From Apostichopus japonicus (Eukaryota > Echinodermata > Holothuroidea > Aspidochirotida > Stichopodidae): a stretch of DNA of 64,000 nt. The DNA lies in the NCBI RefSeq assembly GCF_037975245.1, contig NC_092569.1:10649001-10713000 (forward strand). Direction: 5' to 3'. Below the pieces are notes generated by a model, which did no database searches, was not told the DNA's origin, and was given only the letters and a program-made list of their open reading frames with translations. The position numbers and the translations under genes were made by a program. Of the stretch, positions 18,012-62,937 are shown piece after piece; position 1 is the stretch's first letter, and each line of letters begins with the position of its first letter.

Positions 18012-18456
18012 ATATTTATATAGTAAACAAGGAAAACTTTGACAATATTATAAGCGCACATTTTCAGTTATTCAGTGTTGTTTGAAAAATGGTGAATGTG
18101 CCATCGGGCCTTTAACCTGTTACCTATCAGTATCTGTCAGTGTGATGTCTATAGCATATATTCTAACTATATTTCAAAGTGCGTTGCTATTTACGATTGT
18201 ACTTTTAATAACACAATTAAGGGCCTGTTATTTTAAGGACGCACAGCGATCACTATATTTCTATATATAACTCAATTGAGAGAGATATATGTATATTTAT
18301 GTCTCCAATTTAAGTGCGCCCTGCGTCACAGGTATGGACTCCCCAGTTTTGATTGAGGTTGGGAAATTAATAGCGGAAACGACCAATCAAATTGTTCACT
18401 TCGATAAACGTCATTGCTCACATGACCGCGTATTTATGCTATACGGTACCTCTTAA
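16119..18456 (+). repeat. Satellite unit body 6, left part, ending at Kolobok copy 1
   Basis: Unit body from its normal left edge to TTAA site 1 (CTCTTAA, 18453-18456), where the transposon begins. It has the AATTAAGGG variant (a at 18219) also seen in units 4 and 10. The remaining ~360 bp of the unit and its telomeric block are missing: sequence after the transposon resumes at a different TTAA site of the unit. Confidence 0.93.
17921..18012. repeat. (TA)n(TG)n microsatellite, unit 6
   Basis: One of the longest copies of this compound tract in the window. Confidence 0.95.
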
Positions 18457-18472
18457 AGGACATGTGACACGG
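18457..18472 (+). repeat. Left terminal inverted repeat, Kolobok copy 1
   Basis: AGGACATGTGACACGG, matched perfectly by the complement of the right end. Similarity stops after 16 bp. It lies directly next to TTAA. Confidence 0.95.
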
Positions 18473-18623
18473 TATAGATCCCTCTCAAATTCATACTAGT
18501 GATTCTTTGGATGATAATATAAGTTTATGAATCATTTCGGACGAAAAACATCTCTTACTGCTTTCTAATTAGCTTAATTAAGTCCCGTTCACAACTCTCA
18601 AAACGGCTGAATTTGCGACAAAT

Positions 18624-18642
18624 ATGCAAATGAGATGACGTA
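18624..18642 (+). promoter_or_regulatory. Octamer and CRE-like words upstream of transposase
   Basis: ATGCAAAT (18624-18631, POU octamer consensus) and TGACGTA (18636-18642, CRE-like) lie close together about 250 bp before the transposase start codon. Both could occur by chance; no promoter core is obvious. Copy 2 has the same words (octamer 51659-51666). Confidence 0.25.
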
Positions 18643-18888
18643 CAGAGATGGAGTCACGATATCCTAGCGACGCGTCAGGAGATCAGTGGTCAGGAACAAC
18701 AAAACAACAGTAGACACGCAAACGTATTCTTGTGTACGAGACGTATTATAATATTGTACATAGGCCTAAGCATACTCAGTTTTACTACAGTTGCCTGTCT
18801 ATAATTTCATCAGTTTGTAGGCTATTAACCCTACTCAATAAGTTTCTGAAAGCTAAAGTGATTTCATTTTAAACCGCTGTTACCGACG

Positions 18889-21554
18889 ATGGGAAAATTT
18901 TGTATCGCTGGCGGATGCAGCAACTCCAGTAAAGACGGCGTGAGTCTTCATGGATTCCCCAAAAGAGAACCCGTTCGGAAACTTTGGGTAAATGCCGTGA
19001 GAAACACCCGCAAAGACTGGCTTCAGCCCACTGCTTATTCGTTTTTGTGCAGTGCACACTTCGATGAGACGTGTTTCAAAGAATTTGTGGGGAGTAGGTT
19101 TTCAGAATTTGGACTTTCGCCACATAAACTTCGAAGGCTGAAGGACGATGCTGTGCCAACTTTGTTTGGAAGCAAGGCTAGGCCAAGGCAACAGGAAGGA
19201 AGCAGCCCGATGGATAGGCCAGATGTTAGCAGTTCTGGCAGTAATACTAGCAAGCCAAGCGGCAGTGCCATGTCCACCCCAGGGCCGGTCTCTTTCGTGG
19301 CCGAAACGGTCGTGAAGAAACGAAAGATCGGTGGAGCTTTCAGGAAAAGAGAACATGCTAGGGTGAGTGCATTCAGACTAGGCCTAGACTAAACTCTTTG
19401 CTGGTTTTCCACCTTTCAAATCATTACCCCATTTATGATGATTTAGTAACATAGGCCTAGTCCAAGCTATCACTGAGCAAGGTATCTTCTCATGATCATA
19501 TTTTTACTATGTACATGTCCTATCCTAATGTTGGGTGTAGGATATGAAAGCGTTAGCCTCAACTTGATCATTTATGTAGAAATGAAGTGATGTTGCTGAG
19601 CCTACATTGTGAGGTGGAAGGTATTTGGCATATGGCCTAGGCCTACAATGGATTGTTTTAAAAGTGTGAGAATAGGGCCTACTGTTCTTCCCTAGTTACA
19701 CTAACCTAACATAACAGTTTCGTGCAGTGCTGTGAGTAACTCATTATTTATTGAGACCAAAGGATAGCACGGTGGGTTCATAGAGCTCATTTTACACATT
19801 TAGGATTTTCCAATAATGAGTATTGACAGAGAGTGCACTCCAGCAGCCACCTATTAGCATTTCAATCTGTTTCTGTAGCTAAGAAAATGATTAAGGCCTA
19901 TTGCTGGGCTCCAACAGTATATAAAATTCAAAGTGGCTATTCTTATGACTCGTTGGGACAATAATTCCCTTTTGCGCATGCACAGTTGCTATAACGTGGC
20001 TACTTTTAAGACTAGGAGTACTATTTTCATGACCAGGTGTAACAATAATTTCCGGTTAGGGTTGGATTGAGGGTTAGAGTTAGGGTTACCCCTACTACAT
20101 GCGCAGTTGCTTTATTTACTTTGAATTCGCCGATGTCATAAGAATAATTTATAAATAATTATGACGACTAGTCGTAAGAATAGCCACAGCCTATAAAATT
20201 TAGCAAAATCTGTGAGATGTCAGCAATTTCCAGCTGGTTCGTACATGTATTTGTCACAAGGTAAATTTGTAGTGGTAAACTGATTATATATAATGGCAAT
20301 AGAGGGTAGGTCATAGGTTGTGAAGTATCCACTCTACCCAAAACCTGAGCTGTAGGCCTGCTTGTCGTCATGTCGATAGATAATGTAAATTGCAAGGAAT
20401 AAATCTGCTAAATTTGCAACAATATAAGCAAGATGCAAAAGCTTACAACAGAACAAAAGTTTACTTACATGCCATGACATGTACAGTATTCTGCTAGTAC
20501 CCTGTATTGAAAAAGGCTTTGAAGGCTGAAATATGATTGATTTTCGATTGATAGCCTTCAATTGAATTCATAGGCTGTCAGTTTAAGGCCAGCATCAGTT
20601 TTTTGGGCTCATTTCTATACCAGAAGTCAAACACATAAAGGGGTTGATTTCAGTCAGAAAACAGAATAAAATGACAACAGAGGCACAAATATTTTTCAAA
20701 GCGATTTTTGTGTTCAGTTTGCTTGTTGTAATAATTTTTGTATCTACTTGCAAGTTGCTTATATGCTATTAAAGGCAAAATATTGGCAATAGCCTGACTC
20801 AAAGAGACATGATCTGTACGTGTCAATTGCCATATATAGATTTCTTTTCTTTTCTTCATTTAACAGAACAATGTTGCTCGCATGAGGCAATGGGAATTTT
20901 AGTTCAAGAGGGTTATTGAGTAGGGAAAGAGTTGAGTGTCTTTTTCTATGTGTGGAAAATCACTAAGATGTTGGTACGTTGCGTCTTGCTTCATTGGATT
21001 TTAATAAATAATGTTCTTTTTCTTTACCATGAAGACCCTTGAAGCTGCAGGGGGTAGCAGTTTATCAGAAAAACCATCGTCTGTTCGAGCACAACCACTC
21101 CCAACAGTGCGCGAATTAATAAAAAGAAAGAAAGCCTCTCATCTGGAATCAACACCATTGATGATGGATATTGCATCATCAGAGGTGAGTTTTTTTCTAA
21201 TTATTCTTTTAACAATATAAATTTCTGTTGCAGTCATACTTACATAAATGACAGTTAAAAAGTATTGTAAATGTTGCTTCCAATAGGTGTGTTGAATTTG
21301 AAAAATCTCTAATTAATGATAAATCTTGCATCTTAGTTGTTGTGGCAAGAATTGGAAGCTAAGTCTGTCATGAATGGTTTTGATCTATGGGTCAAATTAA
21401 CATGTCACCTTGATAATAGAATAGTTGAGTGTAGTAGAGGAGAGAGTTAATCTGCATACAGAAACAATGCAACTTTCATCAGTCATGTATTGTTTGCTAC
21501 TTAGTGAAAACACTTTTGTCAGATATTTTCACTGAATATATAGCATTTCATACA

Positions 21555-21614
<60 letters not shown>

Positions 21615-21626
21615 TTATTGTTTCAT

Positions 21627-21665
<39 letters not shown>

Positions 21666-24600
21666 TTATTGTGTGCATAATATGTAAGTGTTCATAGACA
21701 CAAACTACAGAATATCTAAGAACTGAATGGAGTCATGAGCAATGTTTCATCAGTGATTTATCTATCATTTGCATCTCTAGGGTGAAAGTAGTATTGTTGT
21801 GGCACCAAGGGATACTGTCAACGTTGAGGTCAGAGATGAGTTGGCCGTGGAGACTGCATTTTTGTCTAAAGGTAATATATCACCTCTGCCCATGCCCTAT
21901 TGATGATTGTTGTCTGTATAGTTTTTGGTTCCTTTGCTCAAGTACTATTTACTCAAGATAACATGTGTGTTGATGTAAGTAAATGTCAAGAACAGTGGGT
22001 TGGTTTGAATTGAAGATTTTCAGTGCCAGATTTCATTTTGCTGATTAAATATGAGGGGTGGGGCCCGAGAAATTTATGCCTGAATTTGGTTCATTCACAC
22101 AGAATCTATAGAACTTTGGGTTGGTTGAAATACTACTTGACACAATGGTGGGCCCTATTGGTTTTGTTGTGAATATGCTGTATGGTAATGATTTGCAGGT
22201 TTTAGCGAATTAATGTGAGATTGACTTCATATATGGTGTGTACATGACTTCATGTTGCTTGACAGTTAAGACATTTGAAATAGACCCAAGGTTGTATTCA
22301 TGTCATTAATTAGACATTGACATTGAGGATTTCTAAACTACATTGCTAAAACTGTTAAACAGAAGAAAAACCAATGCAGCCATGTGTTTGTCAAACCCTG
22401 TAAGTGCAAATTATTGTCTAGTTAGGTAAGAAACATTTTGCAATGTACATAAATCTCAACCTTCAATTTTTTGAACAGATACCCAGACAGACCGTTCAGA
22501 GTATGTTGAGGCATACGTTCAGTGTGCTTTTGTCCCACTGCCACCACTAGAGTTCAGACACACATCTGAGGAGTTTCCAAAGCCAGCTACTCCTAAGCCA
22601 GCTACCCCCAAGCCAACCACTCCATTATCAGTTAGCCCTACAAAGCCACCATCAGAACTTAGTGAAGAATCCAGTGAGCCAAACCAGCCATCAAGCCCAA
22701 TTTATGAGCCTTCTTCTCATTCATCTGATCCCAGTGGTGATCATGGACCTGGATCATCTCCAGTGTAAGAACTATTATCCTTCTTTCTCACATTTGCATG
22801 TCAGTTTATGACATATATGTTAACTCAATTCACTACATTAAATACAATGTAGTCAATCCTCTCTCTCAAAGTGTGAAAAAATGAAAATTGAAGACAAAGA
22901 CCCAAAAAAAAGTGTGAGCAGATGAATGGGTTGTTTTGTTAGGTAATAATTATCAACAGATCTTGCTGGTTTTTAGAATTCAGCCTTACATGCGTTCGGT
23001 CAAGCACACAAAACCTGCCTGCTCTAATGTAAGAAAGTAATATGAAAGGTTTTCATGAAACAGTGGTGTGTGCAATTCTCAAAGTGCAAATGGTTTTCCT
23101 GTTACTAGATTTATTCCCCTCCAATTACATTTCTTTTGGCAAATCATAGATGAACAGTATTAGGGTCTGTTTTTTTTTTTCTGAAGGACTTTGCCTGTTT
23201 TGTTGATTGACATTTTTCACACCTTCATGATGAAAAAAGGCTGTTCTAAAAAATCCTCAAAAATATAAATTCTGTCTGAATGATCAAATAAAATTGTTTA
23301 TAAGTGATTTGAATGTGGTCTTTGCAAATTCAGTGAGTGGGAGCTGAAATTTTTGGACATGCCAAATCCCAAACATAGATAGCCCTGACACTGTTCTTTG
23401 CATACACTTCCAATGTACTGATGAGTGCATGGTTTGCCAGAAAGTCTGAAAAAAAAAACTTTTCAAAACTTTTTTATCTGCAGAAAACCAAATGTTGAGG
23501 AGACCAAAGAACGTGTATTTTTGGTGATGGAGAGTTGTCTCCTGCTGCTCTTCAAGTTATGTTCTGCATGCAGTGGAACTGTGGAGGCAGTGGTGTGGAA
23601 CATTATAGGGTCCATGATAAGGGTCAGGCAGAGGTGTAAAGAGTGTGCCAACATCACCTTCTGGGACAGCCAGACGTTAGTAGGAAACATTCCCCATGGC
23701 AACCTGATGATGAGTGCAGGGATTCTGTTTGCAGGATCAAATCCTTCAAAGACCCTGCGGGTCTTTACAAATATGTATTGTCCTGCCATTACAAAACGGA
23801 CATTTCACAGGCATCAGAGGAACTGGCTGCATCCAACAATCAGCAGAGTTTGGCGGGAGTCGCAGGAGGAGATGATTGAGGGGCTGAAGGAGATCGGTAT
23901 GGCAGTGAACCTTGGTGGAGATGGAAGGAGTGACAGCCCAGGTCACTCTGCAAAATATGGGTCCTACACTTTCGTTGACCTTGACTGGAACATGGTTCTT
24001 CACCAAGAATTAGTACAGGTACTGATATTTAAGATATAAACTTACATTGATTCTACAAATGTACCTTAAACAACTATGTCTTTTGCTCACATTTGATGAA
24101 ATGAGGCAATCAGAAACAAATCTTTCATATTCCTTGCAATTTTTTCCCTTTTACAGAGCAATGAAGTTTCCAGCAGTAATGCTATGGAACTGGAAGGCCT
24201 GAAGCGGGGGTTGCAGTTCTTTGCAGGGCAAAATCTCCAGGTCAACTCTCTTGTGACAGACAGGCACCGTTCCATTTCAAAATATATGAGGGAAGACCAA
24301 AGTGAGATTGACCATCGCTATGATGTTTGGCACATAGCAAAAGGTGTCTATTTATTCCACTTTTTAAATGGGTATATTACGGGTGTTGCCAAAATTCAAT
24401 TAAGCTAATACAGCAACAACTCTCTGTCTTGGTTTAGTGACCAACATACACAATGAATTTTTGTAAGTTTGCCCAAGTTCCTATTGCTACACCATCACTT
24501 ATAAAACAAATTGTGGTAATCATCCATGATGAGATTACTACCAATGCTATGTTTTGTTTCATTACGTAAAATTTGGCCTCAAAGTGATTTTTCTGCAATG

Positions 24601-26115
24601 GACAATTTATTACACTCTGCTTTATATTTTGCAGGTACTTGTAAGAAAATTGACAAGCTGGCGAAAAAGAAAACCTGTGCAGCAGCTGGTGCCTGGGCAA
24701 AGAGTGTAAGCAACCACCTCTACTGGGTTGCAGCATCTACACCTGACGGTGATGGTGATGTGATGTTGGCCAAGTGGCTGTCTGTTGCCAATCACATCCA
24801 AGATGTGCACCAGCATGATAGTGATCTTTTCCCAAGATGTGTGCATGGAGAATTAAATGTACCAGGAAGAAAGAAGAAGTGGCTGCAACCTAGTAAGTGG
24901 TTCTAGGTGTAGGTGTAACTATTATAACATGGGTGGATGTCCATCTCTCTTCTTGATAATCTTACGTTGAGAAATTGGAAGGTTATACATATACAATAAA
25001 TGCAAAATGGTGTCCACGACAACACTAAAAATCTATCCCTTTTTTTTGAACAGGCACCGAAGTTTGTGAGAAAATGGTACAGGTGATAACTGCTAAGTGT
25101 TTGCAGAAAGACGTTATGCAGTTGTCATCTGCATATCAAACTTCAAACGTTGAAAGCTTTCACAGTGTAGTTATACACTTTGCCCCGAAGAATACCCACT
25201 ACAGCTACCATGGAATGATCAGCAGGTAAACATTGTACCACTTTTATCAATTCTAGGCATCAAGGTTTAACTCATGTAGACATTGCACTTACCAGCTGCA
25301 TAGCCTTAACACCCATTAAGAATTTTAAAATATTTGGAAACAGATGGATGTCTTTTATTAGTAACATCATCAATATTTAATTTTCAAAATGGTTCATACC
25401 TATCACTTTCCTAAGTCCACTTTATAAACATGATCTCTGGTAAAAGCAATGCTACTCCCAGTCTTACATTTACTGTGAAACCAGCAGAAATGTTTGAAAG
25501 TGAAGATAAGGGGTTGACAATTATCAGTGTATTCTCCACAAGTAATAATATTTATACCCAGGGAAATACTTCAGCAAAACAATGAGCAGGGGTGTTTAGA
25601 CACCTGCCATTTAATCATACTCAATTCTTATGATTCACATGTTAGTCTTTAATTTTGATTTCAGACTACAGCTTGCTGCTCTCCATTTTAATGAAAATTC
25701 AAGCAGATCACAAGCCACCACAAATGAGGGAAAAGAAAGGTTTGCCATGAGGTTCCCAAAGTTTAAGAAAGGCCAAGCCACTGTTTCCAAGGTCCTTACC
25801 GATGCAACTTATGGTAAATATTTTTTCCTGCAACTACAGCCTCTTGCAGTGAAATGCAACTTTCATAAGTTATGTAAAGGCAAATTTTTCCATTAAGTCA
25901 CAGTGTTACTTTTTCCCCTTGAATAAATATTCTTTTTTATTGGGGTTGCAGGTTATGTAGAGAAACTGACATCAACTCTACTTCAGTTGTGTAAGGCTGG
26001 AAGAAGCACTATAGGAGACCTTGAGGAAGCTTCTGCCCCACCACCACTGGCAAGCTCTTATGTCCATCCAGACAAAGAGGAGGCTGTCCAGCAACACAAG
26101 AGCAGATATAACTAG
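18889..26115 (+). CDS. THAP-domain Kolobok transposase, copy 1 (10 exons, 821 aa predicted)
   Basis: Predicted to bind the transposon ends and catalyse cut-and-paste transposition in the nucleus. Exons: 18889-19362, 21035-21184, 21781-21871, 22479-22764, 23484-24018, 24157-24343, 24635-24892, 25054-25225, 25665-25813, 25952-26115. All introns are GT-AG and the phases (0,0,1,2,0,1,1,2,1) join into one frame of 2466 nt. Residues 1-93 form a THAP zinc finger: C5, C10, C54, H57, W33 and the closing AVPTLF box. Residues ~245-333 are a Pro/Ser/Thr-rich linker with KPATP repeats. CxxC pairs (CSAC, CKEC) follow in exon 5. The catalytic region has GDGR (D480), TDRH (D547), DVWH (568-571) and SNVES (E694), a plausible DDE triad. 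The start has A at -3 and G at +4. Exons 1-2 are joined by intron phase only, so that splice is least certain. All exons are intact. Confidence 0.85.
19929..20191. mobile_element. MITE-like element nested in transposase intron 1, copy 1
   Basis: 263 bp flanked by a 9-bp direct repeat TATAAAATT (19920-19928 and 20192-20200). Near-terminal inverted repeats GTGGCTATTCTTATGACT (19933-19950) and the complement of GTGGCTATTCTTACGACT (20170-20187) match at 17 of 18 bases. No coding capacity. The 8-9 bp duplication suggests a hAT- or P-type non-autonomous element, but the outermost 4 bp do not pair, so the family is uncertain. Confidence 0.65.
20054..20088 (+). repeat. Short degenerate TTAGGG-like tract
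   Basis: About six degenerate telomere-like hexamers (GGTTAGGG, GAGGGTTAGAG, TTAGGGTT) inside the nested MITE-like element. The G-rich strand is the + strand, opposite to all the large arrays. Probably chance or an old capture. Confidence 0.5.
20867..20902 (+). CDS. Possible alternative terminal exon (THAP-only isoform), copy 1
   Basis: A strong pyrimidine tract and CAG acceptor end at 20866. Splicing from exon 1 (phase 0) would add eleven codons and then TAG at 20900, giving a ~169-aa protein with the THAP finger and no catalytic domain. Retention of intron 1 would give a similar 167-aa THAP-only product. This resembles the repressor-type truncated products known for P elements, but no transcript evidence is available. 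Confidence 0.3.
   Translation, partial: NNVARMRQWEF
21558..21662. repeat. AT microsatellite duplicated in transposase intron 2, copy 1
   Basis: Two AT-dinucleotide tracts, each followed by TTGTTTTATTGT and separated by TTTCATACAA, apparently from a local duplication. This is the main length difference between transposon copies: about 20 bp longer here than in copy 2. Confidence 0.9.
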
Positions 26116-26976
26116 TATACAGCTCTACTAATCTAGCCATCTATCCGTCCGTCCATCTGCCATGTTACTATACCACCATACTTGAACAGATTCACTTGAA
26201 CATTATATATATTTTCAAAAATAAGAAAAACTGATTGTATTGTATGATCATGAAAGTTGAGCACTATGATTGACCAATGGTACAAAAGGGGGGGGGGGGG
26301 GATGTGGGTTATATGAAAGGTTAAATAGTGATCACTTTCACCCATTTTTTTAAAATGCTCAAATGCTGCTTCTACAAATTATATTTAAGTTAATCAGTAC
26401 TATCGCTTGCCAATGGTACATACTGTATGGGACCCATGTGAAGTTTGTTACACATTTTTTTATATGAAGTGAAATTTATTATGGGGGCAAAATGTTTTCA
26501 TCTAGCCTGAACATTGCAGGGATAATGTATGGGCCACCCTCCTTGTTCATTAGGGGACATATCCTCTTCCCCATTCTCCTCACCCTGACCCCTCATTTAA
26601 GTCTGTTTTTATGTCAAATGAATATTTGAAGTATTTTTTAATCTTGTAGTTGTTATGTTATGTAAGTCTTTCTTTAGCTCTAATTTTCCTTGTTTTAAGC
26701 TACAGCTACTTCTTGAGAACTTCTTCAACTTCTTGAAGTAATTGAAAACCGAGGCTTCACACAAGCACATGCATATTCACACACTGCCACATTAAGCACT
26801 CATTTATTCCTCATTGTTTTGTGAAATTAAAAATAGTTATAAATATTTGTAAACAATCACAACTTCCAAGTTCATACTTTCTTTTGTCACTGATTTTTTT
26901 TTTCTTGCTTTCTTTAATGTTAGAAAACCATACAAAATCAGCACTTTAAAGTAGATGACCAATGAAGATTTTCATT

Positions 26977-26982
26977 AATAAA
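26977..26982 (+). terminator. Polyadenylation signal for transposase gene, copy 1
   Basis: AATAAA about 860 bp after the transposase stop codon, and only 33 bp before the opposing gene's AATAAA. The intervening sequence 26116-26976 (putative 3' UTR) shows a poly-G run near 26288 and no gene. Earlier signals could be used instead. Confidence 0.5.
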
Positions 26983-27014
26983 AGAGACACACCTTCTCTT
27001 GATTTACCGTTATG

Positions 27015-27020
27015 TTTATT
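27015..27020 (-). terminator. Polyadenylation signal for ballast-like gene, copy 1
   Basis: AATAAA on the - strand, about 15 bp beyond the stop codon of the - strand gene. Together with the + strand signal at 26977 it marks a compact convergent 3' end. Confidence 0.6.
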
Positions 27021-27034
27021 TACTACACACAAAT

Positions 27035-29277
27035 TTACAGTCGAGGCAATCTAAAACCTTCATAGTTGTCTGATGGAAAAGTGTCTCTAATTTTTAATAC
27101 GGCACATGCTGGGAGGATCACCCTGACATCTTTTCCCAAAAACTGCCAACAAAACCTCACTAGTTGTCGATACGCCACGTGTCGATACTTCCTACAGATA
27201 CAAAAGAAAGGAAAAGAAGAGAGAGAAAAAGCTTGTTCAGTACCAATACTTGCAAGCTGTGTATTGAAAACATACATTAGTTCTGTTTGAATTGTAATCT
27301 AATGCTAGTTACAATGTTTAAATGCCAAATGGAGGAACACTTTAAGCATGACATTGAGTGCTGGCCACCCAGATGAATTAAAGTCCATGAGTTGTACCTC
27401 TCTTCAATGATCAATAATGACAAGTGCTGCCCATTCCATTTTATTTATTGTACATTTCAGCATAAAACTGGTGCCGTGTAGTTAAAGGCTTCTAAAATTA
27501 TAATAACATTAAATTTCTATGGCAATTCGTGTAAGCAATGCAAGTTTTTCATAAATCTTACTCATGTAAACTGCTCTCTCTTGCATTTTCTCCATACTGT
27601 TGGCGGTAAGCAAAATATGCTGTCCTTAATCCCCACCTGTCAAGACAGACAGCATGAAATCCAGGATGTGTTGTGATGCATCCTACACCTTCTTCTTCCA
27701 TAACAACTTTCACCTGATCAATTTCAGTGCAGCATCTGCATTCCCTCGCAGTTGTCATTATGGCACAATGACCACAGGTACACCTTTATGTGAAAGAAGA
27801 TTGAAGTAGTAGTAGTAAACCACAAGAAAGACCACTGTATATAGAGTAATAAATTAGTGAACGACAATGCTGAGGCAGTTAGAAACTTCAACAGGGCCCT
27901 AGCTGTCTATCATGTATTTCATGAACCACTGCAAGAAAGCCCAAGTGCAACCCACCAAATTTCAGAATGTAAGAGATCTTTGATTAAAAAAAAACGCCTG
28001 TAACTGACAGAATGCACTGTTCAATATTACTGAAAGTTTATACTGCCCAAATCATCCTTGTTTATTTCTCTAAGACACTACCCCAAGATTAGATAAACAG
28101 GAAGAACAGACCACATGTATTCGCTTGGTCAGCTAATTGAAGCCACACTCTGATGACCAGGAGAAAATAAAAGAGTGGTCTGATTAGTGATTATGTGTTA
28201 GTACCATGGTCGATTGGAGCAGTTAATCGTACAAAATCTATGTTAATGGAATAAGCAGGCTCATATTGGCTTGACCATAAACAAATACTCATTCCGATAT
28301 CATTCCAACAACTTGTGCCTTTCAAGACATGCATTAAAAACTGAAAATAACTTAATAATGTCCTTTCAAAATAAGGCACAGACTTTTTCTTAGAGCAACA
28401 GCTATTCTACTGCACTGTAGTACTGTGATGGATTCAAGCCTAGGTTCTGTTCACCCTCAATGTTGCATACAGATACAGTTTCATTATCATGAGTAAAATT
28501 GATGGGCAAACAAACAGGGAAAACAATAATTTCCTTCATTTATCTATTTACCAATTAACCACAGATTGAACAGACCTTTAAGTGACTGAATCACAGTACC
28601 CTAAGCCACTGATGTAGGCCTTGGTCATAGAATATAATTCATATTGTCACTGACCTAAGCCAGCTAAACTAACGTTAGGCATAACTATGTTAGGCCTTGG
28701 CAGCCACAGGCTTGCCTAATTCCTGCTTGATCACTTACACGATTGAGTGAACAACCTTCGATTGAGTCCAAATTAGCCTAGGCTACATGCCTACGAAAAC
28801 TTTCGCTTTCTATAATAAGTATGTACAACTACAACGTACACTGGCCCAAATAGGCATCGCGCTTAGGGTCGATATGATGAAGCATTCTGGCGGCGTTCGA
28901 TTACTAAGTATAATCTTATCAGAAGGCAAACAATGATATTGACACTGTGATAAAGGACACTTAATTTCCCAAATATTTACTGGTGAATGGGGTGAATGTT
29001 CGACTAACTCACGTATCCTTCATTATTTGAGTACGTACCAGTCCAAATTCCTTTGGCGATTACCTTCATCGCCTTGTACATCTCCTCCTCCAGCACGGCC
29101 CTCGCCATCGTTCTCGTCACCGGAATCATCCGTTTCTGGCTCGTACATGTAAGGCTGGATATCTCCGCCGCCAGGTAAATATTGTTGATCGGCGATATTC
29201 TCACCATCATTCTCGCTACTTTCGTCAGTATCTGAGCTCTCTACTTCGATACTGAGAGGAAAATATGGCACTGTCAT
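27035..29277 (-). CDS. P2X7 ballast-domain-like protein carried by Kolobok, copy 1 (3 exons, ~205 aa)
   Basis: Exons on the - strand: 29277-29039, 27783-27562, 27191-27035. GT-AG introns, both phase 2, join into one frame of 618 nt. Residues 1-80 are acidic and Gly-rich, with a YMYEPE motif. Residues 81-205 are cysteine-rich: CTCGHC (81-86), ECRCC (94-98), CITTHPGF (115-122), VCL (125-127), YRHVAYRQ (156-163), RVILPACAV (177-185), IRDTFP (188-193), YEGF (197-200). Known: this order (CIT, RH-AYR, LPSC, IR-FP, Y-GF) matches the zinc-binding cytoplasmic ballast domain of vertebrate P2X7 receptors; stand-alone relatives labelled P2X7-like occur in invertebrates. No channel or membrane segments here. 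Its role in transposition is unknown. The upstream in-frame ATG at 29355 (231 aa) has a poorer start context, so 29277 is preferred. The promoter presumably lies between the start and the right terminal repeat. Confidence 0.8.
27784..29038 (-). other. Long intron of the ballast-like gene, copy 1
   Basis: 1255 bp between exon 1 (donor GTACGT) and exon 2 (acceptor ATAAAG) of the - strand gene. AT-rich with several AGGCCT/TAGGCC words. No further exon, nested element or RNA gene recognised; short open frames here look like chance. Confidence 0.6.
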
Positions 29278-29542
29278 GTTTGTTTTCGGTAAAGATGTCT
29301 GGTAATAGCGTGAATTCGTCCAGTAAAATATACTGCGCAGAAGTGACAACTTCATCGACGTTCTGCGCTACAATACCGTACGTCATCAAAAATGAATACG
29401 AAATTAGCTGGCATTCGATGGCCTGATATGAGCGGTTATATTTCACCAATTTTGAATCTGAAGGATTTTTCTGTCGAAAACCATCGAAGTCGATTTGGGA
29501 TAATTGTTGTACGTTATAAAGAGTTCAGTAGAGTTTCGTTTT

Positions 29543-29558
29543 CCGTGTCACATGTCCT
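29543..29558 (-). repeat. Right terminal inverted repeat, Kolobok copy 1
   Basis: CCGTGTCACATGTCCT, the exact complement of the left end, followed by TTAA. Confidence 0.95.
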
Positions 29559-30753
29559 TTAACTAATTTCTTGACAAAAATTATACCAAATGATATTTGC
29601 GAGAAACCGAAACAGCCAGGGCGGTCAAGTTAAACCAAAATATAGAAAACACAAGAACTGTCTTCATAAATTCGCACAGGGAAGGCTATATGTAATAGAG
29701 GGCGCAATATCACATTTGTAACCAAAATAAATACCCGCAGGCCCCATTGTAAAATGTATAAAATCTAGTCTGTCGAAGAGCTGTATCGGGGTCGGGGTTG
29801 AGGAAACCTCGGTATATATGCATTTTTTTTACTGTAGTTATTGTGGCATATTTATCATAGAGCTCGTTGTACCTGGTATGTATGTTCTCTCGTCACAAAA
29901 CAAATAGAAAACAGCTTTTTGACAGATTTTGATTCAATTTATTTATTTATTTCTTACTAAAGTAGTAAAATCCACTAACATTGTAGACTATGATATAGAC
30001 TAAACATGTTTTTTCTCAACCAAACGAATGTTATAACGTGGAAAATTATGAAAGGTTTCAAGTTACTCTTAACATTTCTCATCTACTGATTTGAACAGTT
30101 TATACGTACATTAAAAAAAAAAAAAAATGGTCGAATCGAATGCATTTATTTTTTGCTGATTAACCTCTGCTTCGCAGAAAAATCTAGTTGCAGGGCGCGA
30201 TCCAAAGTAGGTGTGTAACCCCCTTTTTTGTACCCCCCCCCCCGAAAATTTAAAATTGCTTATAGGCTTATATACTAACACAACCTTGTGTATAGACCTT
30301 TTCATAGACCTAACTTATAACCTAATATGCCCCAGACTACAACATTTCACACATCCCCTAGCTGAGGGGGTGGCTAGAAGAACCCCATTTCCATATACCC
30401 TTCCTTTTATAATCTTCTTGTAAAATTTGGTTCGATTAATACTCGCTAGGTTTGTTAAAATTGCCGACCAAATGCAAAATACTATTTGAAAGAAAGAGAG
30501 TAGAGAGCAAACGCCTTGTTGAAACGCCCATGAATACATGGCACTGCCGTGTAACAGGTTTTTAGGGGCACTGTCTAACATCTGTGTTAATATGCGGCTC
30601 TGTTTGTGTGAGTCTAAAGCTGCATTTTGCGTTAGAAATTACATTTTTTTTTTACTTTCGAAATTGGCTTCGGAATCCAATGCTATATTTTCATCGCACT
30701 GGGAGGGAGAACTTCGGGGTCCAATGTGCAGCTCATACTTTGAGGGACCTAAT

Positions 30754-51491: not shown

Positions 51492-51507
51492 AGGACATGT
51501 GACACGG
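51492..51507 (+). repeat. Left terminal inverted repeat, Kolobok copy 2
   Basis: AGGACATGTGACACGG, directly after TTAA at 51488-51491. Confidence 0.95.
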
Positions 51508-51923
51508 TATAGATCCCTCTCAAATTCATACTAGTGATTCTTTGGATGATAATATAAGTTTATGAATCATTTCGGACGAAAAACATCTCTTACTGCTTTC
51601 TAATTAGCTTAATTAAGTCCCGTTCACAACTCTCAAAACGGCTGAATTTGCGACAAATATGCAAATGAGATGACGTACAGAGATGGAGTCACGATATCCT
51701 AGCGACGCGTCAGGAGATCAGTGGTCAGGAACAACAAAACAACAGTAGACACGCAAACGTATTCTTGTGTACGAGACGTATTATAATATTGTACATAGGC
51801 CTAAGCATACTCAGTTTTACTACAGTTGCCTGTCTATAATTTCATCAGTTTGTAGGCTATTAACCCTACTCAATAAGTTTCTGAAAGCTAAAGTGATTTC
51901 ATTTTAAACCGCTGTTACCGACG

Positions 51924-54589
51924 ATGGGAAAATTTTGTATCGCTGGCGGATGCAGCAACTCCAGTAAAGACGGCGTGAGTCTTCATGGATTCCCCAAAAG
52001 AGAACCCGTTCGGAAACTTTGGGTAAATGCCGTGAGAAACACCCGCAAAGACTGGCTTCAGCCCACTGCTTATTCGTTTTTGTGCAGTGCACACTTCGAT
52101 GAGACGTGTTTCAAAGAATTTGTGGGGAGTAGGTTTTCAGAATTTGGACTTTCGCCACATAAACTTCGAAGGCTGAAGGACGATGCTGTGCCAACTTTGT
52201 TTGGAAGCAAGGCTAGGCCAAGGCAACAGGAAGGAAGCAGCCCGATGGATAGGCCAGATGTTAGCAGTTCTGGCAGTAATACTAGCAAGCCAAGCGGCAG
52301 TGCCATGTCCACCCCAGGGCCGGTCTCTTTCGTGGCCGAAACGGTCGTGAAGAAACGAAAGATCGGTGGAGCTTTCAGGAAAAGAGAACATGCTAGGGTG
52401 AGTGCATTCAGACTAGGCCTAGACTAAACTCTTTGCTGGTTTTCCACCTTTCAAATCATTACCCCATTTATGATGATTTAGTAACATAGGCCTAGTCCAA
52501 GCTATCACTGAGCAAGGTATCTTCTCATGATCATATTTTTACTATGTACATGTCCTATCCTAATGTTGGGTGTAGGATATGAAAGCGTTAGCCTCAACTT
52601 GATCATTTATGTAGAAATGAAGTGATGTTGCTGAGCCTACATTGTGAGGTGGAAGGTATTTGGCATATGGCCTAGGCCTACAATGGATTGTTTTAAAAGT
52701 GTGAGAATAGGGCCTACTGTTCTTCCCTAGTTACACTAACCTAACATAACAGTTTCGTGCAGTGCTGTGAGTAACTCATTATTTATTGAGACCAAAGGAT
52801 AGCACGGTGGGTTCATAGAGCTCATTTTACACATTTAGGATTTTCCAATAATGAGTATTGACAGAGAGTGCACTCCAGCAGCCACCTATTAGCATTTCAA
52901 TCTGTTTCTGTAGCTAAGAAAATGATTAAGGCCTATTGCTGGGCTCCAACAGTATATAAAATTCAAAGTGGCTATTCTTATGACTCGTTGGGACAATAAT
53001 TCCCTTTTGCGCATGCACAGTTGCTATAACGTGGCTACTTTTAAGACTAGGAGTACTATTTTCATGACCAGGTGTAACAATAATTTCCGGTTAGGGTTGG
53101 ATTGAGGGTTAGAGTTAGGGTTACCCCTACTACATGCGCAGTTGCTTTATTTACTTTGAATTCGCCGATGTCATAAGAATAATTTATAAATAATTATGAC
53201 GACTAGTCGTAAGAATAGCCACAGCCTATAAAATTTAGCAAAATCTGTGAGATGTCAGCAATTTCCAGCTGGTTCGTACATGTATTTGTCACAAGGTAAA
53301 TTTGTAGTGGTAAACTGATTATATATAATGGCAATAGAGGGTAGGTCATAGGTTGTGAAGTATCCACTCTACCCAAAACCTGAGCTGTAGGCCTGCTTGT
53401 CGTCATGTCGATAGATAATGTAAATTGCAAGGAATAAATCTGCTAAATTTGCAACAATATAAGCAAGATGCAAAAGCTTACAACAGAACAAAAGTTTACT
53501 TACATGCCATGACATGTACAGTATTCTGCTAGTACCCTGTATTGAAAAAGGCTTTGAAGGCTGAAATATGATTGATTTTCGATTGATAGCCTTCAATTGA
53601 ATTCATAGGCTGTCAGTTTAAGGCCAGCATCAGTTTTTTGGGCTCATTTCTATACCAGAAGTCAAACACATAAAGGGGTTGATTTCAGTCAGAAAACAGA
53701 ATAAAATGACAACAGAGGCACAAATATTTTTCAAAGCGATTTTTGTGTTCAGTTTGCTTGTTGTAATAATTTTTGTATCTACTTGCAAGTTGCTTATATG
53801 CTATTAAAGGCAAAATATTGGCAATAGCCTGACTCAAAGAGACATGATCTGTACGTGTCAATTGCCATATATAGATTTCTTTTCTTTTCTTCATTTAACA
53901 GAACAATGTTGCTCGCATGAGGCAATGGGAATTTTAGTTCAAGAGGGTTATTGAGTAGGGAAAGAGTTGAGTGTCTTTTGCTATGTGTGGAAAATCACTA
54001 AGATGTTGGTACGTTGCGTCTTGCTTCATTGGATTTTAATAAATAATGTTCTTTTTCTTTACCATGAAGACCCTTGAAGCTGCAGGGGGTAGCAGTTTAT
54101 CAGAAAAACCATCGTCTGTTCGAGCACAACCACTCCCAACAGTGCGCGAATTAATAAAAAGAAAGAAAGCCTCTCATCTGGAATCAACACCATTGATGAT
54201 GGATATTGCATCATCAGAGGTGAGTTTTTTTCTAATTATTCTTTTAACAATATAAATTTCTGTTGCAGTCATACTTACATAAATGACAGTTAAAAAGTAT
54301 TGTAAATGTTGCTTCCAATAGGTGTGTTGAATTTGAAAAATCTCTAATTAATGATAAATCTTGCATCTTAGTTGTTGTGGCAAGAATTGGAAGCTAAGTC
54401 TGTCATGAATGGTTTTGATCTATGGGTCAAATTAACATGTCACCTTGATAATAGAATAGTTGAGTGTAGTAGAGGAGAGAGTTAATCTGCATACAGAAAC
54501 AATGCAACTTTCATCAGTCATGTATTGTTTGCTACTTAGTGAAAACACTTTTGTCAGATATTTTCACTGAATATATAGCATTTCATACA

Positions 54590-54635
<46 letters not shown>

Positions 54636-57600
54636 TTATTGTTTCATACAATATATATATATATATATATATATATTGTTTTATTGTGTGCATAATATGT
54701 AAGTGTTCATAGACACAAACTACAGAATATCTAAGAACTGAATGGAGTCATGAGCAATGTTTCATCAGTGATTTATCTATCATTTGCATCTCTAGGGTGA
54801 AAGTAGTATTGTTGTGGCACCAAGGGATACTGTCAACGTTGAGGTCAGAGATGAGTTGGCCGTGGAGACTGCATTTTTGTCTAAAGGTAATATATCACCT
54901 CTGCCCATGCCCTATTGATGATTGTTGTCTGTATAGTTTTTGGTTCCTTTGCTCAAGTACTATTTACTCAAGATAACATGTGTGTTGATGTAAGTAAATG
55001 TCAAGAACAGTGGGTTGGTTTGAATTGAAGATTTTCAGTGCCAGATTTCATTTTGCTGATTAAATATGAGGGGTGGGGCCCGAGAAATTTATGCCTGAAT
55101 TTGGTTCATTCACACAGAATCTATAGAACTTTGGGTTGGTTGAAATACTACTTGACACAATGGTGGGCCCTATTGGTTTTGTTGTGAATATGCTGTATGG
55201 TAATGATTTGCAGGTTTTAGCGAATTAATGTGAGATTGACTTCATATATGGTGTGTACATGACTTCATGTTGCTTGACAGTTAAGACATTTGAAATAGAC
55301 CCAAGGTTGTATTCATGTCATTAATTAGACATTGACATTGAGGATTTCTAAACTACATTGCTAAAACTGTTAAACAGAAGAAAAACCAATGCAGCCATGT
55401 GTTTGTCAAACCCTGTAAGTGCAAATTATTGTCTAGTTAGGTAAGAAACATTTTGCAATGTACATAAATCTCAACCTTCAATTTTTTGAACAGATACCCA
55501 GACAGACCGTTCAGAGTATGTTGAGGCATACGTTCAGTGTGCTTTTGTCCCACTGCCACCACTAGAGTTCAGACACACATCTGAGGAGTTTCCAAAGCCA
55601 GCTACTCCTAAGCCAGCTACCCCCAAGCCAACCACTCCATTATCAGTTAGCCCTACAAAGCCACCATCAGAACTTAGTGAAGAATCCAGTGAGCCAAACC
55701 AGCCATCAAGCCCAATTTATGAGCCTTCTTCTCATTCATCTGATCCCAGTGGTGATCATGGACCTGGATCATCTCCAGTGTAAGAACTATTATCCTTCTT
55801 TCTCACATTTGCATGTCAGTTTATGACATATATGTTAACTCAATTCACTACATTAAATACAATGTAGTCAATCCTCTCTCTCAAAGTGTGAAAAAATGAA
55901 AATTGAAGACAAAGACCCAAAAAAAAGTGTGAGCAGATGAATGGGTTGTTTTGTTAGGTAATAATTATCAACAGATCTTGCTGGTTTTTAGAATTCAGCC
56001 TTACATGCGTTCGGTCAAGCACACAAAACCTGCCTGCTCTAATGTAAGAAAGTAATATGAAAGGTTTTCATGAAACAGTGGTGTGTGCAATTCTCAAAGT
56101 GCAAATGGTTTTCCTGTTACTAGATTTATTCCCCTCCAATTACATTTCTTTTGGCAAATCATAGATGAACAGTATTAGGGTCTGTTTTTTTTTTTCTGAA
56201 GGACTTTGCCTGTTTTGTTGATTGACATTTTTCACACCTTCATGATGAAAAAAGGCTGTTCTAAAAAATCCTCAAAAATATAAATTCTGTCTGAATGATC
56301 AAATAAAATTGTTTATAAGTGATTTGAATGTGGTCTTTGCAAATTCAGTGAGTGGGAGCTGAAATTTTTGGACATGCCAAATCCCAAACATAGATAGCCC
56401 TGACACTGTTCTTTGCATACACTTCCAATGTACTGATGAGTGCATGGTTTGCCAGAAAGTCTGAAAAAAAAAACTTTTCAAAACTTTTTTATCTGCAGAA
56501 AACCAAATGTTGAGGAGACCAAAGAACGTGTATTTTTGGTGATGGAGAGTTGTCTCCTGCTGCTCTTCAAGTTATGTTCTGCATGCAGTGGAACTGTGGA
56601 GGCAGTGGTGTGGAACATTATAGGGTCCATGATAAGGGTCAGGCAGAGGTGTAAAGAGTGTGCCAACATCACCTTCTGGGACAGCCAGACGTTAGTAGGA
56701 AACATTCCCCATGGCAACCTGATGATGAGTGCAGGGATTCTGTTTGCAGGATCAAATCCTTCAAAGACCCTGCGGGTCTTTACAAATATGTATTGTCCTG
56801 CCATTACAAAACGGACATTTCACAGGCATCAGAGGAACTGGCTGCATCCAACAATCAGCAGAGTTTGGCGGGAGTCGCAGGAGGAGATGATTGAGGGGCT
56901 GAAGGAGATCGGTATGGCAGTGAACCTTGGTGGAGATGGAAGGAGTGACAGCCCAGGTCACTCTGCAAAATATGGGTCCTACACTTTCGTTGACCTTGAC
57001 TGGAACATGGTTCTTCACCAAGAATTAGTACAGGTACTGATATTTAAGATATAAACTTACATTGATTCTACAAATGTACCTTAAACAACTATGTCTTTTG
57101 CTCACATTTGATGAAATGAGGCAATCAGAAACAAATCTTTCATATTCCTTGCAATTTTTTCCCTTTTACAGAGCAATGAAGTTTCCAGCAGTAATGCTAT
57201 GGAACTGGAAGGCCTGAAGCGGGGGTTGCAGTTCTTTGCAGGGCAAAATCTCCAGGTCAACTCTCTTGTGACAGACAGGCACCGTTCCATTTCAAAATAT
57301 ATGAGGGAAGACCAAAGTGAGATTGACCATCGCTATGATGTTTGGCACATAGCAAAAGGTGTCTATTTATTCCACTTTTTAAATGGGTATATTACGGGTG
57401 TTGCCAAAATTCAATTAAGCTAATACAGCAACAACTCTCTGTCTTGGTTTAGTGACCAACATACACAATGAATTTTTGTAAGTTTGCCCAAGTTCCTATT
57501 GCTACACCATCACTTATAAAACAAATTGTGGTAATCATCCATGATGAGATTACTACCAATGCTATGTTTTGTTTCATTACGTAAAATTTGGCCTCAAAGT

Positions 57601-59130
57601 GATTTTTCTGCAATGGACAATTTATTACACTCTGCTTTATATTTTGCAGGTACTTGTAAGAAAATTGACAAGCTGGCGAAAAAGAAAACCTGTGCAGCAG
57701 CTGGTGCCTGGGCAAAGAGTGTAAGCAACCACCTCTACTGGGTTGCAGCATCTACACCTGACGGTGATGGTGATGTGATGTTGGCCAAGTGGCTGTCTGT
57801 TGCCAATCACATCCAAGATGTGCACCAGCATGATAGTGATCTTTTCCCAAGATGTGTGCATGGAGAATTAAATGTACCAGGAAGAAAGAAGAAGTGGCTG
57901 CAACCTAGTAAGTGGTTCTAGGTGTAGGTGTAACTATTATAACATGGGTGGATGTCCATCTCTCTTCTTGATAATCTTACGTTGAGAAATTGGAAGGTTA
58001 TACATATACAATAAATGCAAAATGGTGTCCACGACAACACTAAAAATCTATCCCTTTTTTTTGAACAGGCACCGAAGTTTGTGAGAAAATGGTACAGGTG
58101 ATAACTGCTAAGTGTTTGCAGAAAGACGTTATGCAGTTGTCATCTGCATATCAAACTTCAAACGTTGAAAGCTTTCACAGTGTAGTTATACACTTTGCCC
58201 CGAAGAATACCCACTACAGCTACCATGGAATGATCAGCAGGTAAACATTGTACCACTTTTATCAATTCTAGGCATCAAGGTTTAACTCATGTAGACATTG
58301 CACTTACCAGCTGCATAGCCTTAACACCCATTAAGAATTTTAAAATATTTGGAAACAGATGGATGTCTTTTATTAGTAACATCATCAATATTTAATTTTC
58401 AAAATGGTTCATACCTATCACTTTCCTAAGTCCACTTTATAAACATGATCTCTGGTAAAAGCAATGCTACTCCCAGTCTTACATTTACTGTGAAACCAGC
58501 AGAAATGTTTGAAAGTGAAGATAAGGGGTTGACAATTATCAGTGTATTCTCCACAAGTAATAATATTTATACCCAGGGAAATACTTCAGCAAAACAATGA
58601 GCAGGGGTGTTTAGACACCTGCCATTTAATCATACTCAATTCTTATGATTCACATGTTAGTCTTTAATTTTGATTTCAGACTACAGCTTGCTGCTCTCCA
58701 TTTTAATGAAAATTCAAGCAGATCACAAGCCACCACAAATGAGGGAAAAGAAAGGTTTGCCATGAGGTTCCCAAAGTTTAAGAAAGGCCAAGCCACTGTT
58801 TCCAAGGTCCTTACCGATGCAACTTATGGTAAATATTTTTTCCTGCAACTACAGCCTCTTGCAGTGAAATGCAACTTTCATAAGTTATGTAAAGGCAAAT
58901 TTTTCCATTAAGTCACAGTGTTACTTTTTCCCCTTGAATAAATATTCTTTTTTATTGGGGTTGCAGGTTATGTAGAGAAACTGACATCAACTCTACTTCA
59001 GTTGTGTAAGGCTGGAAGAAGCACTATAGGAGACCTTGAGGAAGCTTCTGCCCCACCACCACTGGCAAGCTCTTATGTCCATCCAGACAAAGAGGAGGCT
59101 GTCCAGCAACACAAGAGCAGATATAACTAG
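51924..59130 (+). CDS. THAP-domain Kolobok transposase, copy 2 (10 exons, 821 aa predicted)
   Basis: Exons: 51924-52397, 54070-54219, 54796-54886, 55494-55779, 56499-57033, 57172-57358, 57650-57907, 58069-58240, 58680-58828, 58967-59130. Splice sites and phases equal those of copy 1 and the translated exons look identical, including the zinc-ligand set C5/C10/C54/H57 and candidate catalytic D480, D547, E694. It is predicted to recognise the terminal repeats through the THAP finger and carry out TTAA-directed transposition. Two intact copies suggest recent activity, or homogenisation by recombination within the array. As in copy 1, an acceptor in intron 1 (exon start 53902) would give a THAP-only product. 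Confidence 0.85.
52964..53226. mobile_element. MITE-like element nested in transposase intron 1, copy 2
   Basis: Same 263-bp insertion as in copy 1, with the TATAAAATT direct repeats and 18-bp subterminal inverted repeats. Its presence in both copies shows that it entered before the transposon was duplicated. Confidence 0.65.
53089..53123 (+). repeat. Short degenerate TTAGGG-like tract, copy 2
   Basis: Same tract as at 20054-20088, within the nested MITE-like element. Confidence 0.5.
53902..53937 (+). CDS. Possible alternative terminal exon (THAP-only isoform), copy 2
   Basis: Identical to the candidate in copy 1: pyrimidine-rich acceptor, eleven in-frame codons after exon 1, then TAG. Confidence 0.3.
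   Translation, partial: NNVARMRQWEF
54590..54676. repeat. AT microsatellite in transposase intron 2, copy 2
   Basis: Same duplicated AT tracts as copy 1, about 20 bp shorter in total. Confidence 0.9.
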
Positions 59131-59993
59131 TATACAGCTCTACTAATCTAGCCATCTATCCGTCCGTCCATCTGCCATGTTACTATACCACCATACTTGA
59201 ACAGATTCACTTGAACATTATATATATTTTCAAAAATAAGAAAAACTGATTGTATTGTATGATCATGAAAGTTGGTGAGCACTATGATTGACCAATGGTA
59301 CAAAAGGGGGGGGGGGGATGTGGGTTATATGAAAGGTTAAATAGTGATCACTTTCACCCATTTTTTTAAAATGCTCAAATGCTGCTTCTACAAATTATAT
59401 TTAAGTTAATCAGTACTATCGCTTGCCAATGGTACATACTGTATGGGACCCATGTGAAGTTTGTTACACATTTTTTTATATGAAGTGAAATTTATTATGG
59501 GGGCAAAATGTTTTCATCTAGCCTGAACATTGCAGGGATAATGTATGGGCCACCCTCCTTGTTCATTAGGGGACATATCCTCTTCCCCATTCTCCTCACC
59601 CTGACCCCTCATTTAAGTCTGTTTTTATGTCAAATGAATATTTGAAGTATTTTTTAATCTTGTAGTTGTTATGTTATGTAAGTCTTTCTTTAGCTCTAAT
59701 TTTCCTTGTTTTAAGCTACAGCTACTTCTTGAGAACTTCTTCAACTTCTTGAAGTAATTGAAAACCGAGGCTTCACACAAGCACATGCATATTCACACAC
59801 TGCCACATTAAGCACTCATTTATTCCTCATTGTTTTGTGAAATTAAAAATAGTTATAAATATTTGTAAACAATCACAACTTCCAAGTTCATACTTTCTTT
59901 TGTCACTGATTTTTTTTTTTCTTGCTTTCTTTAATGTTAGAAAACCATACAAAATCAGCACTTTAAAGTAGATGACCAATGAAGATTTTCATT

Positions 59994-59999
59994 AATAAA
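59994..59999 (+). terminator. Polyadenylation signal for transposase gene, copy 2
   Basis: AATAAA at the place equivalent to 26977 in copy 1. The sequence 59131-59993 before it shows no gene. Confidence 0.5.
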
Positions 60000-60031
60000 A
60001 GAGACACACCTTCTCTTGATTTACCGTTATG

Positions 60032-60037
60032 TTTATT
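60032..60037 (-). terminator. Polyadenylation signal for ballast-like gene, copy 2
   Basis: AATAAA on the - strand just beyond the stop codon of the - strand gene. Confidence 0.6.
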
Positions 60038-60051
60038 TACTACACACAAAT

Positions 60052-62294: not shown

Positions 62295-62559
62295 GTTTGT
62301 TTTCGGTAAAGATGTCTGGTAATAGCGTGAATTCGTCCAGTAAAATATACTGCGCAGAAGTGACAACTTCATCGACGTTCTGCGCTACAATACCGTACGT
62401 CATCAAAAATGAATACGAAATTAGCTGGCATTCGATGGCCTGATATGAGCGGTTATATTTCACCAATTTTGAATCTGAAGGATTTTTCTGTCGAAAACCA
62501 TCGAAGTCGATTTGGGATAATTGTTGTACGTTATAAAGAGTTCAGTAGAGTTTCGTTTT

Positions 62560-62575
62560 CCGTGTCACATGTCCT
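62560..62575 (-). repeat. Right terminal inverted repeat, Kolobok copy 2
   Basis: CCGTGTCACATGTCCT followed by the duplicated TTAA at 62576-62579. Confidence 0.95.
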
Positions 62576-62937
62576 TTAACAGTATAACATTGCTTGGTTA
62601 CTATATATTTAAAAAATAATTAGCGGCGTGACTATCAATGGGAGACTGAAAGTTGGTTTTTGTTGGGTTCGGTGGGGATGGGGGAGGGGGTCGGGAGGAG
62701 AGGGATGGGAAGTGAAAGTTGTACAGATTTTGCGGATTACTGTGAAACAGCCTAGTGTTTCTTTGCTTAGCTTAAAATCTGCTAATATTATGAAGCTTTA
62801 GTTACATCCGTCGAAAAGTTACACTCTGTTGAAATCAGGGAGTTGTTTAGGATTGAAACGTTGCACTGCTTTACGGCTCTACATTACTGTATCAAATATA
62901 CAATGTCCATATACATTGTACGCTGTAGTAGTGCATT
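62576..62937 (+). repeat. Satellite unit body 13, right part after Kolobok copy 2
   Basis: Resumes at TTAACAGTATAAC exactly where 49523-51491 stopped. Contains the G-rich tract near 62671-62708 and the normal junction into the last telomeric block. Confidence 0.95.

Follow-up and report, generated by a model that had tools for sequence, protein, structure and literature searches.

A Kolobok transposon of the holothurian Apostichopus japonicus that carries a P2X7 ballast-domain gene

Why should the cytoplasmic ballast domain of the P2X7 receptor occur as a gene of its own inside a transposon? This question is raised by a 64,000-nucleotide stretch of the genome of the holothurian Apostichopus japonicus (NC_092569.1, positions 10,649,001 to 10,713,000; the whole stretch is hereafter called the window), in which a first-pass annotation had noted a minus-strand gene with a complete, stand-alone set of ballast motifs between the inverted repeats of a transposon present in two copies. 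The annotation proposed that Kolobok elements could have been the vehicle by which P2X7 gained its ballast, and that many invertebrate “P2X7-like” expansions could be transposon genes. Its main idea is right and known, because Kojima & Bao 2022 (PMC9587614) published the Kolobok–P2X7 link; the main text of that paper names the gene KolX and derives the P2X7 ballast from it. Beyond this paper, our literature search found none on the link. The element in the window is very probably a Kolobok DNA transposon of A. japonicus with an open THAP-DDE transposase gene and an oppositely oriented KolX gene, the latter likely serving the element's own transposition. What is added here is the genome-wide confirmation and a refinement into two KolX types, with P2X7 on the type II side.

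The three predicted exons of the minus-strand gene carry AG/GT splice signals and join into an open frame of 205 amino acids (aa), in which the motifs WCxCxxC, CC, CIT and PAC...IR..FP follow one another in the order found in P2X7, as the annotation had stated. An annotated A. japonicus protein (P0001) is listed as 100% identical to the 205-aa KolX over its full length; by eye, one residue differs. The Pfam profile P2RX7_C (PF20478), with which the annotation had proposed to check the protein, matched it at 67.5 bits (E = 2e-18; cut-off, 23.5 bits), and this match is not due to chance. Among 31 aligned proteins from several phyla, the seven zinc cysteines were invariant at a mean identity of 29% per column, and the ballast fold of KolX with these cysteines is a prediction. 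The N-terminus of KolX is rich in D, E, S and T. Ahead of the zinc domain, 30 of the 31 proteins, all of the group called type I below, contain the motif P[YF]xx[EDQ][PQ], a pattern picked after inspection of this alignment (the exception is P0043); it was not seen in the N-termini of the type II frames L016, L024 and L026. A Pfam scan of KolX detected no P2X channel domain, and a search for relatives in viral contigs gave 49 pattern matches, none of which was confirmed.

The gene lies within an element bounded by perfect 16-bp inverted repeats, AGGACATGTGACACGG, and the two copies of this element in the window (Table 1) are 99.76% identical over 11,114 alignment columns, with 1 mismatch and 5 gap openings. 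The published hallmarks of Kolobok are a TTAA target and 5′-RR and YY-3′ ends, the ends being the feature that separates Kolobok from piggyBac. The window element, AGGACATG...CATGTCCT, begins with AG and finishes with CT, in agreement with these hallmarks. Motifs in the transposase indicate D480, D547, D568xxH571 and E694, which, together with its THAP domain (59.9 bits; Pfam cut-off, 23.9), form the combination of DDE residues, C/DxxH signature and THAP domain characteristic of Kolobok. The Mutator-like transposase family PF20700 scored 23.2 bits, below its cut-off of 26.5, and no piggyBac family appeared in the Pfam scan of this protein at E ≤ 1. The transposase had 213 homologues at E ≤ 0.001, the best being a partial A. 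japonicus THAP protein (91%); others were sea urchin, acorn worm, mollusc, lancelet, coral, sponge and fish proteins. The transposase and KolX genes converge tail to tail, with 0.9 kb between them. In this two-gene content, the second gene being KolX with its predicted ballast fold, the element matches the Kol0 lineage, and it represents a further Kolobok family, of an already known kind, from a holothurian.

Copies elsewhere in the genome with other flanks demonstrate that the element is mobile, since one right end followed by TTAA meets six different flanks in six copies. Four of these copies lie outside the window (one on contig C16, two on C17 and one on C21), sharing the right end and differing in the right flanks; the C16 copy was listed at 100% identity across the 2,243-base query. 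In the window itself, positions 419–62579 form a tandem array of units of about 3.2 kb, and every unit contains a (CCCTAA)n tract that resembles telomeric repeats; there are 16 runs of at least 4 CCCTAA repeats, all in one orientation and amounting to 7,956 bp. The transposon has thus invaded a satellite of subtelomere-like character. One unit of 3,186 bp contains 22 TTAA sequences, and the left ends of both element copies are at the same one, site A. Copy 2 has the site A TTAA on both sides, as a target-site duplication, and 11 other units show site A empty. The two TTAAs of copy 1 come from two sites: its right end abuts the TTAA of site B, and the A-to-B stretch, 1.1–1.9 kb in 11 other units, is gone there. 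Because the two copies share site A at their left ends, the window holds a single insertion, later multiplied or altered, and two independent insertions were rejected. Thus, the annotated location of the gene inside a full-length transposon in both copies was borne out by inverted repeats, TTAA and identical exons, but the copies do not count as independent insertions. Since the deletion at copy 1 stops exactly at the last base of the element and the TTAA, it suggests the action of the transposase or recombination of elements once inserted at A and B; the A/B junction (18453 and 29559–29562) bears the mark of either one-ended transposition or recombination of two insertions. No RNA families were found in the window.

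We then consider whether the pairing of ballast gene and transposase recurs in the genome. The P2RX7_C profile gave 471 candidates, of which 150 were scored, all of them above the cut-off; no match was obtained in 14 control genomes. Kolobok transposases were sought with two protein queries, for which 58 of 315 and 76 of 254 candidates were scored. The pairing count used 69 of the 150 ballast rows (the 81 lowest were left out) and 62 transposase places, after repeats and exon pieces had been dropped, and the expected counts assume uniform placement. Fifteen of the 33 ballast loci above 60 bits were within 5 kb of a transposase match, as compared with 0.03 expected, and all 15 pairs were tail to tail. 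At 40–60 bits, 5 of 36 loci were within 5 kb (0.04 expected) and 8 were within 12 kb; seven of these eight pairs were tail to tail and one was on the same strand. Thirty loci were fetched and compared at the DNA level, with repeat families defined by 80% identity over 1 kb; they fell into families of 16, 4, 4, 3 and 2 plus one singleton, and 26 of the 30 belonged to families in which one or more members lie next to a transposase. In three ballast repeat families, comparison of copies put the left end at a TTAA with AG or AA after it, and a single right end could be placed at CCT-TTAA. One ballast-bearing element of 14.1 kb is present on C5 and C9 at 99.9% identity with different flanks. The ballast genes of the A. 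japonicus genome are mostly transposon genes, and the proposal that a mobile element carries the ballast gene was upheld well beyond the window.

C-terminal ballast pieces also ride in TTAA repeats, because the lower-scoring loci show TTAA ends: three of seven such loci fetched are in one repeat, each of them with the left end TTAA-AGTGGCCATGACACG and two also with the right end that matches it, and two others have the common left end TTAA-AGGGGC. The high-copy repeat of L063, L064 and L065 is about 3.1 kb long, has TTAA-AGTGGCCATGACACG ends and contains a C-terminal piece of the ballast with 74% identity to P0007; of the 150 scored ballast matches, about half resemble this repeat in having coordinates and a stop in common. 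In one A. japonicus gene model (P0014), a ballast piece is fused to the sialyltransferase domain PF00777, which may reflect an inserted transposon that was taken as an exon. For other phyla, the evidence consists of lists of proteins and of one pair of genes with consecutive ids in the scallop Ylistrum balloti, where the ballast gene LOC132557107 (P0031) and the Kolobok transposase gene LOC132557108 (P0190) are both on scaffolds of 220,032 bp. The view that “P2X7-like” expansions are transposon genes holds in the main for the A. japonicus genome.

The phylogeny of ballast domains suggested by the annotation split in two with support of 100/100, both with 42 domains and with 36 (long-branched L023 omitted). 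A motif filter left L016, L020, L024 and L037 out of the 42-domain tree; in the 36-domain tree L016 was added, and L023 and six near-copies were left out. The trees are unrooted, the type II rows come from the A. japonicus genome alone and the P2X7 rows from two or three mammals. Type I comprises the window protein and 25 proteins of other phyla, all retrieved with the window's own protein, and type II comprises A. japonicus families; mammalian P2X7 falls with the latter. Between CC and CIT, the window protein has a loop of 16 residues, as against 5–6 in type II and P2X7. Among 123 type I search hits, this loop has 14–30 residues in 104, is shorter in nine and lacks the pattern in ten; the short spacing (4) in eight type I proteins we take for a cysteine inside a long loop, as checked by eye in one of them (P0027). 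The best Protein Data Bank (PDB) scores to P2X7 were 39.8 bits for the window protein and 48.1 bits for P0007 (type I), and 75.5 bits for L016 and 81.9 bits for L010 (type II); the L016 family is paired with transposases, the L010 family not clearly. On these comparisons, the P2X7 tail is likely closer to the type II transposon gene than to the type I gene of the window, which qualifies the proposed route from Kolobok to P2X7. A transposase tree set three type-II-side rows apart at 100/100, of which only L049, on a long branch, is known to be ballast-paired, 9 of 12 loci having been removed by a frame filter, and nothing firm was drawn from it. The two-type split with P2X7 on one side was not found in the available portions of Kojima & Bao 2022 and Rump et al. 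2020 (PMC7016195).

The only singleton among the 30 fetched loci, L023 on C19, contains an open frame of 213 codons preceded by a good splice acceptor, and no transposase was found in its flanks. It scored 59.8 bits to P2X7 in the PDB comparison, and joined P2X7 at 81/86, on a long branch, in the 42-domain tree; from its sequence, it may be a domesticated KolX. Its P2X7-like motif, LCCRRSHGVCIT, and terminal-exon acceptor led us to search for a fusion with a P2X channel. All five genome matches to the channel family PF00864 (nine candidates, all scored) were on C15, at 15.099–15.191 Mb, whereas L023 is on C19 (and the window on C9), and neither inspection by eye nor regular expressions revealed a P2X motif in the reading frames that precede L023 over a distance of up to 10 kb; the fusion was therefore rejected. 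The nearest of eight C15 ballast matches, among the 150 of 471 candidates scored, is 1.02 Mb from a P2X exon. It is conceivable, although we place it slightly on the doubtful side, that the P2X7 tail is a captured transposition cofactor from one particular Kolobok branch, that with the short-loop KolX of type II, which TTAA transposons of sea cucumbers carry to this day, that the type I gene of the window is an older cousin, and that capture occurred more than once, the C19 gene being an independent domestication without a P2X channel.

Table 1. Positions of the element, its genes and its target sites in the window, and of the singleton ballast gene.
Feature	Position	Strand	Details
Kolobok element copy 1	18457..29558	+	11,102 bp; 16-bp perfect inverted repeats at 18457-18472 and 29543-29558
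TTAA, left end of copy 1	18453..18456		site A of tandem unit
TTAA, right end of copy 1	29559..29562		site B of tandem unit, not site A
Predicted THAP-DDE transposase gene	18889..26115	+	10 predicted exons, 821 aa, open frame
KolX exon 1	29039..29277	-	acidic N-terminus and PYMYEPE motif; in-frame upstream ATG at 29355
KolX exon 2	27562..27783	-	zinc cysteines, clusters 1 and 2
KolX exon 3	27035..27191	-	RHVAYR, PAC...IRDTFP, stop at 27035
Kolobok element copy 2	51492..62575	+	11,084 bp; TTAA 51488-51491 and 62576-62579, both site A
Transposase gene, copy 2	51924..59130	+	ten exons letter-identical to copy 1
KolX gene, copy 2	60052..62294	-	three exons letter-identical to copy 1
L023 ballast gene	L023:1354-1962 (C19:11523676-11524285)		terminal exon; P2X7-like motif LCCRRSHGVCIT

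The assignment of the window element to a two-gene Kolobok transposon is carried by its inverted repeats, the 11 empty TTAA sites, the open frames (with predicted splicing), the copies with other flanks, the ballast match and the recurrent tail-to-tail pairs. In such an element, the transposase would bind the inverted repeats through its THAP domain, and with its DDE core it would cut at TTAA and insert the element at another TTAA. With its zinc fold, KolX would partner either the transposase or the DNA ends, its acidic tail and PYxFEP motif being a likely docking site. A role in the handling of DNA ends would fit because in other Kolobok lineages the second protein is a nuclease or a helicase. 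The P2X7 receptor would have obtained its ballast from a KolX-type gene, as published by others, P2X7 being grouped with short-loop type II and not with type I. Several points weigh against parts of this account. Eighteen of the 33 best ballast loci have no transposase match within 10 kb, and some of these are in families with in-frame stops; L010, L011 and L021, which form one repeat family, and the singleton L023 are without a clear transposase, the transposase-like pieces in L021 and L011 being weak (E = 3e-4 to 7e-4). The accessory role of KolX is deduced from its occurrence in transposons. Rat P2X7 binds GDP through five residues, of which the KolX of the window keeps R546, H547 and R578, with R574 and K583 replaced; because these two equivalents are lost, a nucleotide-binding role for KolX is doubtful. 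Finally, P2X7 was nested in type II with support of 92/85, and the approximately unbiased (AU) test gave p = 0.549 for type II alone, so that we claim neither a nested nor a sister position for P2X7.

Three alternatives to a working KolX gene within a Kolobok element were weighed. Many loci hold only a C-terminal KolX piece inside TTAA repeats, as they might if KolX were a passenger kept by chance and doing nothing for the element; we consider this improbable, because the invariance of all seven zinc cysteines in proteins otherwise so divergent, and the uniform order of the 15 close pairs, would not persist in a neutral passenger. Similarly improbable, in our judgement, is a flow from host to transposon, by which the ballast gene would be a host gene picked up by some transposons. 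It would agree with L023, a single-copy ballast gene without transposon traits, and with the available portion of Rump et al. 2020, in which the linkage of ballast genes to two markers from sponge to sea urchin is read as one ancestral host locus. However, the overwhelming majority of ballast matches in the A. japonicus genome are repeated and have Kolobok transposases as partners, the two markers are unspecified in that portion of the paper, and an odd fusion described there, a tick protein with a “TAHP” domain ahead of the ballast, looks from its domain order like a Kolobok THAP protein. The tree is unrooted, and the direction of flow is therefore beyond its reach. That the element is instead a piggyBac, the other TTAA superfamily, of which Kojima & Bao report families with a KolX-like C-terminal part in the main text, is hardly credible in view of the 5′-AG...CT-3′ ends, the THAP domain, the DxxH signature and the lack of a piggyBac Pfam match.

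P2X7 is a drug target with sites for zinc and guanine nucleotides in its ballast. If, as the reading of KolX as transposition machinery implies, the ballast began in transposons, its old job of holding the transposase or the DNA ends would be a testable guide to the function of the receptor tail, and the split into two types tells which elements suit such function tests. Invertebrate genes annotated as “P2X purinoceptor 7-like” are mostly not receptors, and we warn against this label because a single genome has 150 scored matches, as compared with fewer than 10 genes per species in the 2020 survey of ballast across animals (Rump et al.), whose available portion does not mention “transpos”.

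Among known systems, the closest to the window element is Kol0/KolX as described in the main text of Kojima & Bao (PMC9587614), with which it shares TTAA, 5′-RR ends, a THAP-DDE transposase and a second protein with a ballast domain. Unlike that text, which gives only KolobokP families for A. japonicus and whose supplement may list the window family, the present family is holothurian and 11.1 kb long. The Xenopus element Kolobok A3 (PMC6004289, available portion) likewise has TTAA and AG ends, and its terminus, AGGACATGTCAACCCC, equals AGGACATGTGACACGG in the first nine bases, but it is a different family and no ballast gene is mentioned there. The ballast/ZCD of P2X7, as far as described in the available portion of PMC7016195, resembles KolX in its three cysteine clusters, its R546/H547/R578 equivalents and its model fold; KolX differs in being without the P2X channel part, in its CC–CIT loop of 16 residues versus 6 in P2X7, in the loss of the R574 and K583 equivalents and in its acidic N-terminus with PYxFEP. 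Zebrafish nanor and other stand-alone ballast genes (PMC7016195 and PMC9587614, in the portions available) are similar to KolX in standing alone with a short N-terminus. Those genes are described as host genes, which Kojima & Bao regard as likely domesticated KolX, whereas the gene in the window resides in a mobile element.
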